Shown here: positions 17,938-23,063 of the stretch, one piece after another
Numbering within the stretch: position 1 is the stretch's first letter
Layout: each line of letters begins with the position of its first letter
Source: a virus
Direction: 5' to 3' (one strand)
IMG/VR virus record: IMGVR_UViG_3300030098_003353
Coordinates: 1 to 24,455 of that record
DNA: 24,455 nt
Notes under the pieces: model-generated
What the model saw: only the letters and a program-made list of their open reading frames with translations
What the model was told of the DNA's origin: nothing
The model's database searches: none
Position numbers and translations under genes: made by a program

Positions 17938-18279
17938 TTAGGTTCGGCGAGGGTCTTGAATTGCAAAACCAAGCGTTGCCGAAAACCTTATAACTCTATC
18001 TAGCAAGTCGCTAAATTCATCTTTGGTCAAATCTTTTGTGGACTCTATTTTAAATTTAAGTTTAATAACTTCGTGCATTTCATCTTCGTTATAACCTAGA
18101 TGATTTCCAAGTTGCCTTATAACTGTCCTATAATAGCTATTCTGCTCACTAGAACGCATTTTAGGAGCAACTTTTATATCAATCCATACATCACCCTTAA
18201 TTCCGTTTAAATAGCGTTTAAGCCCAGCAGGGTCGTGCATTTTTAACGATCCGTTTTGTACCTTTCCTGTAAATTTCAT
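17938..18279 (-). CDS. NinB-like recombination protein
   Basis: This 113-residue protein has a beta start (KFTGKVQNGSLKMHDPAGLK), the tract RSSEQNSYYRTVIRQLGNHL and an acidic helix region ending in DEFSDLLDRVIRFSATLGF followed by IQDPR. Lambda NinB (Orf) has RSLDQNRKLW and GEFAELLELIQAFGTERGV in the same order. NinB-like proteins bind single-stranded DNA and help load recombinases. It is the last gene of the - strand recombination operon, overlapping the upstream gene as ATGA. Similarity is by eye, and the alternative is a related phage protein of unproven function. Confidence 0.55.
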   Translation of the reverse strand: MKFTGKVQNGSLKMHDPAGLKRYLNGIKGDVWIDIKVAPKMRSSEQNSYYRTVIRQLGNHLGYNEDEMHEVIKLKFKIESTKDLTKDEFSDLLDRVIRFSATLGFAIQDPRRT

Positions 18280-19122: not shown

Positions 19123-19479
19123 TTAGCTTCCCACATTATTGTTAGGATTACTGCTAATTAAGTCTATAAAATGATTAACCTCAACAACTGCATATGTTTT
19201 TGTCCTGTTTCTTTTTATAATGACAACAGGGTGCCTGTCCTCGCAGTTTTTTGATGCTTGTTCTATAGCACTCCAAATATTAAGTTTTTCTACATTTTTA
19301 CACTCAAAAGAATAGGGTATTATTTTTTTTGCAGCAGGACTCAAAACAATGTCTTCTCCGCACATTCCCATAATTTGAGATTTTATATCATCTTCTTCAA
19401 GACTTGGAAACATTTTTCTTAATAAATCTCTCATATAATTTTGAAGTCTTCTGCCTTTTGCTTTACTTGGATGAGCCAT
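19123..19479 (-). CDS. Hjc/VRR-NUC-like endonuclease (probable Holliday junction resolvase)
   Basis: The 118-residue protein begins MAHPSKAKGRRLQNYMRDLL. It has Asp43 in GEDIVLSP and then E59-x-K61 in SFECKNVE, the catalytic core of archaeal-type resolvases and their phage relatives. A helix (WSAIEQASKN) and the strand VVIIKRNRTKTYAVVEV follow as in that fold. Such enzymes resolve four-way junctions made by recombination or replication, freeing DNA for packaging. The ATG at 19479, with AAGGAGAG just upstream, is chosen over an in-frame ATG at 19518. It lies within the end of the preceding small basic gene. Confidence 0.75.
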   Translation of the reverse strand: MAHPSKAKGRRLQNYMRDLLRKMFPSLEEDDIKSQIMGMCGEDIVLSPAAKKIIPYSFECKNVEKLNIWSAIEQASKNCEDRHPVVIIKRNRTKTYAVVEVNHFIDLISSNPNNNVGS

Positions 19480-19583
19480 TTTCTCTCCTTTTTCAATCTT
19501 TTTTGTTCTCTCTTCCATTTCTTTATAGACTCTCTGGCTTTCTTTTTGTCGTGTTTTCTTTGTTTGGCTTTTTTATTCGGCAT
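19431..19583 (-). CDS. Small basic protein, paralogue of the 6652 peptide, 50 aa
   Basis: The product starts MPNKKAKQRK, identical for ten residues with the 31-residue peptide at 6652-6747 on the other strand. The next stretch also aligns: HDKKKARESIKKWKR against YEKKKRREAIKKYKR. The C-terminal 20 residues (ending KAEDFKII) are extra and overlap the start of the resolvase gene in another frame, so they may be a late extension. Very high Lys/Arg content suggests nucleic acid binding. It overlaps the 40-residue gene upstream by 11 bases. Function unknown. Confidence 0.6.
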   Translation of the reverse strand: MPNKKAKQRKHDKKKARESIKKWKREQKRLKKERKWLIQVKQKAEDFKII

Positions 19584-20013: not shown

Positions 20014-20190
20014 TTATAAATAATTTTCTAATTCAACTAATGCTTTTTTAGATAAAGAATCACCCTTTCCGTATTGTGCTAGTAAATAACTGACAATAGT
20101 TTTTTCAATCTTAAAGTGCCTCCCATCTTCTCCATCAAGCAATCTAAATCCATCAACACGCTCTCTTAGCTTTTGTATCGTATCTTCCAT
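20014..20190 (-). CDS. Small helical protein of unknown function, 58 aa
   Basis: The start at 20190 (MEDTIQKLRERVDG) is chosen because AAGGAG lies just upstream; the open frame extends further to 20232 without a ribosome site. The product is helical and charged, with a central GEDGRHFKI turn and ends in SLSKKALVELENYL. Its ATG overlaps the stop of the replication-type gene. Function unknown. Confidence 0.7.
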   Translation of the reverse strand: MEDTIQKLRERVDGFRLLDGEDGRHFKIEKTIVSYLLAQYGKGDSLSKKALVELENYL

Positions 20191-20603
20191 TATTTTCTCC
20201 TTCGTTCTGGCATTAACTCTGCCTTGCAACACCTACTATCCCCAGTCAAATCATCTTTATGGTAAAAGTCACTTATATTGCATCGTGAGCAATAACCTAA
20301 GTATGAATTTCCTGAAGCGTCTAATTGAAACGACTTTTTAACGTCTGGGGTATACAGCTCATCTTCCCACCTTCTCCCATTTAAGTAAGTTGAAGGGTAA
20401 GGGATAAACTGCTGTTTAAAACTCCACTCTTCCTGCTTATATCTATTAGTCCAATGCTTTATATTTTCTGGCAAAGCATTGTAAGCATCAAGCTTGTCCT
20501 TGCGATTTAGTCTATTAAAAGCCTTCTCAGCGTTTCCTTTCGACTCCTTCCTAGGATACAGCTTCCAAAACTGCTCAAAAGATATTTCCTTAAAATCTGG
20601 CAT
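20190..20603 (-). CDS. Replication-type protein with C-terminal zinc-ribbon-like cysteines
   Basis: With the start at 20603, four bases after the SSB stop, the product has 137 residues. An ATG at 20624 is equally possible, and neither has a clear ribosome site, so translational coupling to the SSB gene is likely. The tract FEQFWKLYPRKESKGNAEKAF near the N-terminus is a motif of phage replication initiation and helicase-loader-like proteins. After a Trp-rich middle (HWTNRYKQEEWSFKQQFIPY) the end carries C-x2-C and C-C (CSRCN, then RCCKAE), which could hold zinc. Placement with SSB and annealing-type genes fits DNA replication. The exact role is not shown. Confidence 0.6.
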   Translation of the reverse strand: MPDFKEISFEQFWKLYPRKESKGNAEKAFNRLNRKDKLDAYNALPENIKHWTNRYKQEEWSFKQQFIPYPSTYLNGRRWEDELYTPDVKKSFQLDASGNSYLGYCSRCNISDFYHKDDLTGDSRCCKAELMPERRRK

Positions 20604-20607
20604 ATTA

Positions 20608-20976
20608 TTAAAAAGGGATGTCATCTTCGCTAATAGTGGTATGTCTATCTTCAGTTGTCGGTCGTTTAGTTGCTTCAACAGATTTTCCCTCCTTAATATC
20701 ATTTCTAGTTAAGCCATTAACCTTAAAATAAGGGTATTCCATTCCTTCTTCTGGAGGACACTTTTCTATAGTAATTTCATCTCCCTCTTTTGCTCCTAAA
20801 GTTTGAATCATATCGTGTAGTGTTGGCGTTGCAAAAAAACAATCCTCATCACTATTTATATCAGGTTTAAATCCATACATATACCAAGGACCATATTCGT
20901 TTGTTCCAGGTTTTGGCTTATCAAAAGACAATGTCATTTTCCTAGGTTTGCCAATCTCAAAATTAATTTTACTCAT
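20608..20976 (-). CDS. SSB-like single-stranded DNA-binding protein
   Basis: The 122-residue protein has a beta-rich N-terminal part (SKINFEIGKPRKMTLSFDKP, then WYMYGFKP and GDEITIEKC) that could be an OB fold. It has a flexible Lys/Thr-rich linker and ends EDDIPF. That acidic tail with terminal Pro-Phe is the protein-binding tip of bacterial SSB, which recruits replication and repair partners. SSB binds exposed single strands during replication and recombination. The body is unlike E. coli SSB, so the assignment leans on the tail and on the neighbours. AAGGAG precedes the ATG, which overlaps the upstream stop by one base. Confidence 0.7.
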   Translation of the reverse strand: MSKINFEIGKPRKMTLSFDKPKPGTNEYGPWYMYGFKPDINSDEDCFFATPTLHDMIQTLGAKEGDEITIEKCPPEEGMEYPYFKVNGLTRNDIKEGKSVEATKRPTTEDRHTTISEDDIPF

Positions 20977-21569
20977 TACTTACTCTCCTTATTTAAATTA
21001 TAAAATTGTTTTATAGCTTCTTCTATTTCCCCACCTTCCATTAAATCCTTTATTCTTTGACCATCTACTTTAGTTAAGCTTCTCATAATAGGTTCGGCTT
21101 TTTTATTAATATAATCACCTCTAGCTACAAATATCTTCCTTATATTGTTCTTCATATAATCTGAAGCCATATCAGAATTATAATTATAAGTGCTAGTTGA
21201 TGGTTGGTTTTTAAAATCATCGCTTTCTTCTTCAGAATAAATGCCATACTCATAAGCATTTATAAGCTTAAGGACACATCTATCTCTCCCTCTTTTCTCT
21301 GCCATGCAACCTAAATACTTAGATGTGCAATTAGATTTATTTGCTTCACCTATAGACTTAACAAGCTTTCCATCTTTACTCATACCAATTAAAAACCTGC
21401 AATCGATGTCAGATTGATAAATATTTTCAAAACTCTCTAATATAATGTTTTCTTTGTGTGCTATAATTGTACAGGCATCGTGTGTTAAAATCCACTTACC
21501 ACTCTGCTTGTGTTTCCAGAAGTCATCTTTTGTTAAATCATACTTTTCTGCTAACTCTTTTATGTTCAT
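20976..21569 (-). CDS. Possible ssDNA-annealing or recombination protein, 197 aa
   Basis: First gene of the operon behind the promoter at 21611-21640, with TAGGAGAG before the ATG. The N-terminal half reads WILTHDACTIIAHKE, then a strand with CRFLIGMSKDGK, then SIGEANKSNC, then MAEKRGRDRCVLKLINAYE and YSEEESDDF. The IGEA-x-N followed by AEKR-x-x-R-x-L-K pattern recalls a group of phage proteins found beside SSB and nuclease genes, and also the AEK-type tract in Rad52-like annealers. The C-terminal region is helical (SLTKVDGQRIKDLMEGGEI). The annealing role is inferred from context and partial motif likeness, not established. Confidence 0.45.
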   Translation of the reverse strand: MNIKELAEKYDLTKDDFWKHKQSGKWILTHDACTIIAHKENIILESFENIYQSDIDCRFLIGMSKDGKLVKSIGEANKSNCTSKYLGCMAEKRGRDRCVLKLINAYEYGIYSEEESDDFKNQPSTSTYNYNSDMASDYMKNNIRKIFVARGDYINKKAEPIMRSLTKVDGQRIKDLMEGGEIEEAIKQFYNLNKESK

Positions 21570-21640: not shown

Positions 21641-21963
21641 GTAAAAAATATAACTTGCATTTATAATCTGCGTTATTGTAATTTGCTAGTCCATTATTGG
21701 TTTGGTTTAATACTTTTGGCGATAATGGTTTTAAAGTGGTTACCAAAAGGGGTTGTTTCTCAAAGCCACATACAAGACGAAAGATTCTGAGTAGAGGATA
21801 TATCATTAACGATGAATAAATCGAATCTCGCAAATTATGGGTTAAATTTATAGTTTGTATGCACGAGGCGACTCTGAAGGTTGTAACTCTATTAGGCATA
21901 GGTGTCCTGCTCCTTTTGATAGGGGTAGGGACTCCTCTATGCTTTAGCTCACTAAAGGTTGTA
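21641..21963. other. Gene-poor 320-base stretch rich in inverted repeats (candidate structured RNA or DNA site)
   Basis: No convincing gene lies between the lipoprotein stop (21964) and the promoter. Complementary segments are frequent: CCATTAT 21691-21697 with 21722-21728; CTTTTGG 21713-21719 with 21743-21749 (interleaved, so pseudoknot-like); CATACAA 21769-21775 with 21855-21861; and AGATTC 21782-21787 with 21823-21828. There is also a long hairpin 21894-21944 and CTTTAG/CTAAAG 21942-21957. In + strand RNA the long hairpin gains three G-U pairs that are mismatches on the - strand. Some short pairs are expected by chance in AT-rich DNA. Possible meanings are a non-coding RNA, an origin or a regulatory site. 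Confidence 0.5.
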
Positions 21964-22125
21964 TTATTCAACGATTTTAACATATACAGGGTTGAAAGGA
22001 CTAGAGCCTAAACCATTAATTAAAACCTCATTAAAATCTTCCTCATTACTACTTAAGCTTAAATCACAACCATTAAGACATAAGGCAAAAATATAGCCTA
22101 AAATTATAAATTTAATATTGCTCAT
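21964..22125 (-). CDS. Small lipoprotein, 53 aa
   Basis: An AGGGGG site precedes the ATG, which overlaps the sigma-like gene stop as ATGA. The product has a short N-terminus with Lys, a hydrophobic stretch [11 protein letters not shown], and a lipobox-like LNGC with Cys20. The mature part would be about 34 residues, acidic ([10 protein letters not shown]), ending with NPVYVKIVE. It is expected to be lipid-anchored at the cell surface or inner membrane. Small phage lipoproteins often block superinfection or modify the envelope; that role is an inference. Confidence 0.7.
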
Positions 22126-23063
22126 TTTATCCCCCTTTTTAATTGTTCTGTGTATTCTACTTCTATATTTGATTTAAGACATTTATAACAAATATATACC
22201 TTTTTATTTATTATTTGGACAATCTTATCTAAAGGTGTGGGAGTACCCCATGAACATCTAGATGTAATTCCAAAATCTCTCTTTAAAAATTTGGACAATT
22301 TTGTCGAAATTAATATTTTTATAGTTTTTAATTCTTGTTTTGTGTAAAACTTTTCATTAATATTGTTTTTATTCAAAATGTAATTAAGCTTTTCATCATC
22401 AAACTCTTCCATAAAAATAGTTGCTGAATGATAATTTGAACATTCAGGGGCAAGGCTTTTATTAGAAAAAGGTTTTAATTTATCGCTTCTGCTCCTATGT
22501 CGCATTCTTCTTAATGCTTTTTCTTTAATTTGTCTCGCCCTCTCTCTTGTGACTCCAAGCTCTTTTCCAACCTCATCGAGAGAATAACCCCCGTTTTCAC
22601 CCACCCCAAAATAACCATTCATACCAAAGTACATTTCAAGGCACTTTCTCTCTCTATCTTTTAAAGTCTTTAATCCTTTGTGTAATTCTTTTTTTAAGAA
22701 AGTATTGTGCAAATCTTGGTTTTCTTCCACACTTACATCGGACTCTATTTGCAAAACTTCTTTTGAGTTTATAGATAAAACTTTATCTATCGGAAGGTCT
22801 TTTACTATTTTTTTATTTTGACCCTTTGTTTTCTCTATTACCTCTCTGTATTGTTCAAACAAATCCCACTCGTTTGATTTTAAAAGATTTATGATTTTAT
22901 CCTTAGATTCTCCTTTAAATAAGTATTTTAAATTAGCATATTCAACTAAGCGAGTATAACTTAAGCCAGACGCTCTTGAAAATTCTGCTATTGAATTATA
23001 ATTATTTTTTTTAAGGCAATTTATAAATGAAGCATTTTTAAATCTTATTTCAGTTCTTATCAT
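22122..23063 (-). CDS. Sigma-70 region 4 protein with N-terminal HTH-like region
   Basis: This 313-residue protein should bind promoter DNA and RNA polymerase. Residues 128-198 match region 4 of primary sigma factors: [18 protein letters not shown], then [20 protein letters not shown], then [16 protein letters not shown]. This is the -35 recognition helix-turn-helix and flap-binding part. Residues about 22-45 ([20 protein letters not shown]) look like an XRE-type helix-turn-helix. Region 2, needed for -10 melting, is not visible. About 110 residues follow region 4, with CYKC at 292-295. It may redirect host polymerase to phage promoters or act as a co-regulator. AAGGGA lies upstream of the ATG. 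Confidence 0.85.

Follow-up and report, generated by a model that had tools for sequence, protein, structure and literature searches.

A phage protein with a predicted XRE domain, sigma-70 region 4 and no region 2 probably redirects host RNA polymerase to phage genes

Lambda cI, a protein of the XRE class, activates transcription by touching region 4 of sigma-70, and its N-terminal domain reportedly lies next to sigma-4 on DNA in PDB entry 1RIO. The interaction of region 4 with the flap is a target of known phage regulators (PMC3985653), and in phage T4 the AsiA/MotA pair replaces the contact between sigma-4 and the -35 element at replication and recombination genes (PMC2988021; PMC6755090), a type of appropriation that in 2010 was unknown outside T4-type phages (PMC2988021). 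An engineered fusion of lambda CI to residues 528–613 of E. coli sigma-70 serves in two-hybrid assays (PMC3985653), and in Bacillus subtilis the SigO/RsoA pair carries sigma regions on a protein devoid of the others. Here, we describe a phage gene whose product combines two domains, XRE and sigma region 4, with no region 2, an anatomy that recurs with its own pattern of conservation in many phages. From it we infer that the protein binds DNA, docks on the flap and activates transcription, and at which stage it does so. The gene was found in IMG/VR virus record IMGVR_UViG_3300030098_003353, all 24,455 bases of which are referred to below as the window (Table 1).

Compared with RpoD/SigA, the protein retains region 4 together with the last part of region 3.2, whereas regions 1.2, 2 and 3 are missing and an XRE domain is present instead. 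The fold predicted for its N-terminal part is that of XRE regulators such as lambda cI, P22 c2, SinR and C-proteins of the C.AhdI type, but here sigma-4 belongs to the same chain and there is no cI-type C-terminal domain. If our reading of its function holds, the protein would work much as AsiA/MotA does, with a phage factor replacing the contact of sigma-4 with the -35 element, T4 using two proteins that bind host sigma-4 while the XRE-sigma4 protein brings its own; a PHROGs search returned neither the AsiA nor the MotA family. The resemblance to SigO/RsoA is limited by the extra XRE domain and by the lack of a region-2 partner in the 20 records screened. The engineered CI fusion has the same order of domains, although the phage protein is natural, its linker is short and conserved, and a C-terminal extension is added in the window and in one relative (L136). 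Xpf of PBSX was considered as a precedent for a region-4-only protein and dropped, PMC10141391 listing both sigma2 and sigma4 for it. No description of the XRE-sigma4 architecture was found in the literature searched, mostly without subscription journals, which is weak evidence of novelty.

Table 1. Coordinates of the XRE-sigma4 gene and of the parts of its product in the window
Feature	Position	Strand	Remarks
XRE-sigma4 regulator gene	22122..23063	-	313 aa; stop included in coordinates
Residues 7-79: XRE (lambda-repressor-like) HTH domain, recognition helix about residues 36-43	22827..23045	-	Structure prediction, fold matches, family HMMs
Residues 86-121: short linker, conserved PIDKxLSxxSKEVLQxESD	22701..22808	-	Family alignment
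Residues 122-199: sigma-70 regions 4.1 and 4.2	22467..22700	-	Pfam, PDB, fold matches, contact residues
Residues 201-313: C-terminal extension, one CxxC	22125..22463	-	Conserved with L136 only

The reading frame opens with ATG preceded by an AAGGG ribosome-binding site, and the only significant Pfam domain of its product is Sigma70_r4 (PF04545, residues 131-189, E=1.1e-15; score 57 bits, cut-off 24). Region 4 of RpoD/SigA from PDB aligns to the protein with E about 6e-13, residues 108-204 superimpose on SigA region 4 with a VIA-align Z of about 10, and identity to primary sigma-70 factors of the RpoD/SigA type reaches 40% over residues 89-199. Since the structures align over approximately the latter interval, similarity to sigma factors starts with the last part of region 3.2. 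The first-pass annotation, which had proposed a nearly canonical region 4 preceded by an XRE-like segment and devoid of region 2, thus proved right as to the first element, and the other two also held when examined as described below. The C-terminal extension, which that annotation had not mentioned, has no Pfam family and is common to the window and L136 only, its tail YTExLKRGIK being strongly conserved.

At the N-terminus the query sequence alone gave no significant Pfam HTH match, while HTH_26 was matched by 7 of 18 family members and HTH_3 (Cro/C1-type) by 4 of 18, with a best E of 1.9e-5. Because whole-chain fold searching was filled by sigma-4 hits, the N-terminal domain was modeled by itself. 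The AlphaFold model built from an alignment of 18 relatives contains five helices flanked by two strands, residues 11-79 having pLDDT mostly of 80-95 (mean 81.6 for 110 residues), and almost all its structural matches are XRE proteins: ImmR (Z 8.4), SinR (8.0), P22 c2 (7.9), 434 Cro (7.1) and C.AhdI (7.1). Values of Z near 8 are insufficient alone, and it is the agreement between the list of fold matches and the HMM matches that is decisive; the assignment for the query itself thus draws on its relatives and on structure prediction. The linker that follows is 31-43 residues long in 42 members and net acidic in most of the 25 inspected; PID.MLS..SKEVLQLESD is conserved in the close group, and a related amphipathic stretch occurs in far members.

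Region 2, the part of sigma-70 factors responsible for -10 recognition, melting and core binding, was not detected in the 313-aa protein by Pfam at E<=1, nor was it found in the predicted structure, where residues 7-79 adopt the XRE fold. When residues 1-110, as an 18-row profile, were compared with nine complete phage sigmas, hhalign returned a probability of 0.3%, against 99.8% for the positive control, in which region 4 of the family was aligned to the same sigmas. A diverged region 2 hidden in residues 50-125, which would turn the protein into an ordinary sigma factor, was looked for and is rejected on the results of Pfam, fold matches and hhalign, residues 50-79 belonging to the XRE fold and 86-121 to the linker.

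The architecture is not peculiar to the window. At least 45 distinct XRE-sigma4 proteins are encoded on contigs of uncultured phages, and among the ORFs of the loci examined region 2 occurs in 0 of 45, while those ORFs that are ordinary sigmas and do have region 2 carry no XRE part. About ten relatives from IMG/VR share 42-55% identity over residues 1-200, and the close ones (among them L012, L013, L092, L094, L096, L098, L099 and L101) have intact frames and invariant key residues; L136 is the sole full-length relative (46% identity over residues 1-313). The architecture was absent from the cultivated phage records examined: ten phage and three plasmid matches inspected as possible relatives turned out to be complete or end-cut sigmas, none of the cultivated phage matches spanned 80% of the query, and a single-protein viral scan gave no match. 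In PHROGs, all 18 family members scanned match a family that bears the name RNA polymerase sigma factor.

Residues in contact with the -35 element and the beta-flap were numbered by the end of E. coli RpoD, in agreement with the 1tlh and 3t72 alignments. On this scale the positions E585, R588, Q589, K593 and R596 are each kept in at least 30 of 31 XRE-sigma4 domains. Of these domains, 30 have R or K at R584, and at F563, in the flap pocket, F occurs in 25 and either F or Y in 29. The recognition helix of sigma-4.2 is the most conserved part (mean pairwise identity 0.82 in the close and 0.72 in the far group), while in the XRE recognition helix the corresponding values are 0.44 and 0.21. Fixed contacts with polymerase and the -35 element combined with differing operators would lead one to expect just such a conserved sigma-4.2 helix and a variable XRE helix.

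A phylogeny of 123 sigma-4 domains, computed from 85 columns, recovers the subfamily of the query as a clade with support of 99/92. This clade is nested among sigmas of Bacteroidota type and of phages, while many distant XRE-sigma4 members fall elsewhere. A single clade for all XRE-sigma4 rows was rejected only marginally (p-AU 0.04 on 85 columns), and in view of the lack of one common clade these proteins may not all work alike. Repeated fusion of XRE with sigma-4 or swapping of sigma-4 is possible from these sequences, and the pattern would fit repeated recruitment, sigma-4 swapping or adaptation to the host polymerase. A second region-4-only architecture, without region 2 and XRE and with a different N-terminus, was encountered in phage proteins L086:743-1480, L091:5812-6447 and L061:4386-4862, which are placed near distant XRE-sigma4 members in the tree.

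Within the window, the XRE-sigma4 gene is located upstream of a match to a replication initiation protein (20190-20702), RusA (19123-19518) and NinB (17938-18279), with an ORF designated SSB-like on the basis of position only (20608-20976) lying between. In relatives the gene adjoins those for a Cas4-like nuclease or Sak, and across loci its neighbors differ, being Cas4-like nuclease, Sak, SSB-like or RepO-like genes. None was constant in the family loci compared, and therefore no fixed partner is indicated. A small lipoprotein-like gene (21964-22125, minus strand), whose start overlaps the XRE-sigma4 stop in the window, has a 56% identical counterpart in L136 (L136:9389-9544), located there upstream of the XRE-sigma4 gene. 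The transcription switch that the first-pass annotation had suggested the protein to form with the lipoprotein and small genes is thus not sustained, given this relocation and the lack of a constant neighbor. As to the host, the tree groups sigma-4 of the query subfamily with Bacteroidota-type sigmas, but Shine-Dalgarno sites precede 22 of the 28 genes checked, such sites being mostly missing in Bacteroidota. Relatives were not found in 395 Bacteroidota genomes by a search without positive control, and one search of genome contigs yielded a Bacteroidales sigma only.

Just downstream of the XRE-sigma4 gene, a conserved sequence of about 320 nt (21655-21975, minus strand) is present in 15 distinct phage copies (L173-L187). 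Its 5′ hairpin contains a CCCTACCCC-like strand, and at the 3′ side a pseudoknot is formed by two helices, CTTTTGG/CCAAAAG and CCATTAT/ATAATGG, with compensatory changes in both: 96.2% of cells pair, 34 cells are changed on both sides, and the covariation score is 0.464 against 0.180 in shuffles, the signal being destroyed by a one-base slide. Within the pseudoknot, AGTATYRAACCAAAC is invariant except for two variable bases. An open frame is lacking in some of the divergent copies, and no significant Rfam match was obtained for the element, so that it is a candidate new structured RNA; as only 3 of the 15 contigs bearing it match the XRE-sigma4 protein, the two are separate. Promoter scanning gave 42 matches versus 35.4 expected, being uninformative except for one good match. 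A near-consensus promoter TTGACA-18-TATATT lies at 21640-21611 (minus strand), just after the RNA element and before gene 20976-21569; a similar TTGACA site is seen by eye at the matching place of L093. The same phage contig, which also carries an XRE-sigma4 gene, has a sub-threshold match to the type-P1 twister ribozyme (L093:7053-7106, plus strand; 31.5 bits against a gathering value of 67.2, E 0.006).

The XRE-sigma4 protein probably redirects host RNA polymerase to phage genes, and the reading we favor, with confidence evenly poised, is that of a phage activator, most likely of replication and recombination (middle-type) genes, holding operators by its XRE domain and polymerase by its own sigma-4. 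On this scheme, the XRE domain would bind phage operators and the fused region 4 would dock on the beta-flap of host polymerase and/or on the -35 element, either substituting for region 4 of the host sigma or sitting next to it. Recognition of the -10 element and melting of DNA would stay with regions 2 and 3 of the host sigma. One chain, the form in which the structure was modeled, would join the roles split between lambda cI and host sigma-4. The genes next to that for the XRE-sigma4 protein in the window and in the closest relatives (SSB-like, RepO-like, RusA, NinB, Cas4-like nuclease and Sak) serve replication and recombination, the class to which the T4 middle genes switched by AsiA/MotA also belong (PMC6755090). 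Extended -10 promoters are still transcribed by holoenzyme whose sigma-70 has no region 4 (PMC6237814), and in T4 the function of region 4 passes to AsiA (PMC6755090), so that supply of region 4 in trans is plausible. A natural sigma-4 swap, in which the phage arm would replace host region 4, so that one polymerase would read the -10 element by means of the host sigma and an upstream element by means of the XRE-sigma4 protein, is conceivable, with the balance leaning against it. Of the roles offered in the first-pass annotation, that of a co-regulator of host polymerase, as against a stand-alone sigma, finds support, and the data weigh neither for nor against an anti-sigma partner.

The contact residues kept in XRE-sigma4 domains would also suit a competitor of the host sigma, which would occupy the beta-flap and/or -35 elements, displace host region 4 and shut -35-dependent host promoters, its XRE domain only autoregulating or sparing phage promoters. 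Sigma is displaced by Xp10 P7, which makes contact with both the flap and beta′ (PMC3985653), yet a well-kept XRE domain with variable recognition helix and a kept sigma-4.2 helix suggest specific DNA targets, and such a competitor seems unlikely, if worth bearing in mind. Both XRE and sigma-4 being DNA-binding folds, one could alternatively imagine a two-headed repressor or regulator using sigma-4 as a second HTH on -35 sequences of phage promoters with no polymerase contact; the persistence of F or Y at the F563 position and of conserved 4.1, neither needed by a plain DNA-binding HTH, makes this rather improbable.

Split sigmas do exist (PMC10141391), and the protein might be one subunit of such a pair, as in SigO/RsoA, if a second phage protein carried region 2. 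However, in 20 virus records including the window, up to 64 kb long and possibly fragments (contigs of 64, 62 and 61 kb were covered), Sigma70_r2 had no match at E<=10, Sigma70_r4 being present in each; this, together with the variability of neighbors in the compared loci, renders a split sigma very improbable. Absence of region 2 is also what a decayed sigma factor or a functionless chance fusion would display, but the identical architecture of 45 distinct proteins, the degree of identity to close relatives, their undamaged frames and the constancy of key residues leave this explanation with almost no credence.

For annotation, these data carry a warning, as the 45 XRE-sigma4 proteins would be labeled "sigma factor" if region 4 were the only criterion. 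If a sigma-4 swap takes place, sigma appropriation by a single protein would be spread across many uncultured phages. Compared with the two-protein system of T4, one phage protein that couples a region 4 of its own to a repressor-type DNA-binding domain would offer a simpler route to re-aiming host polymerase, and apparently a widespread one.
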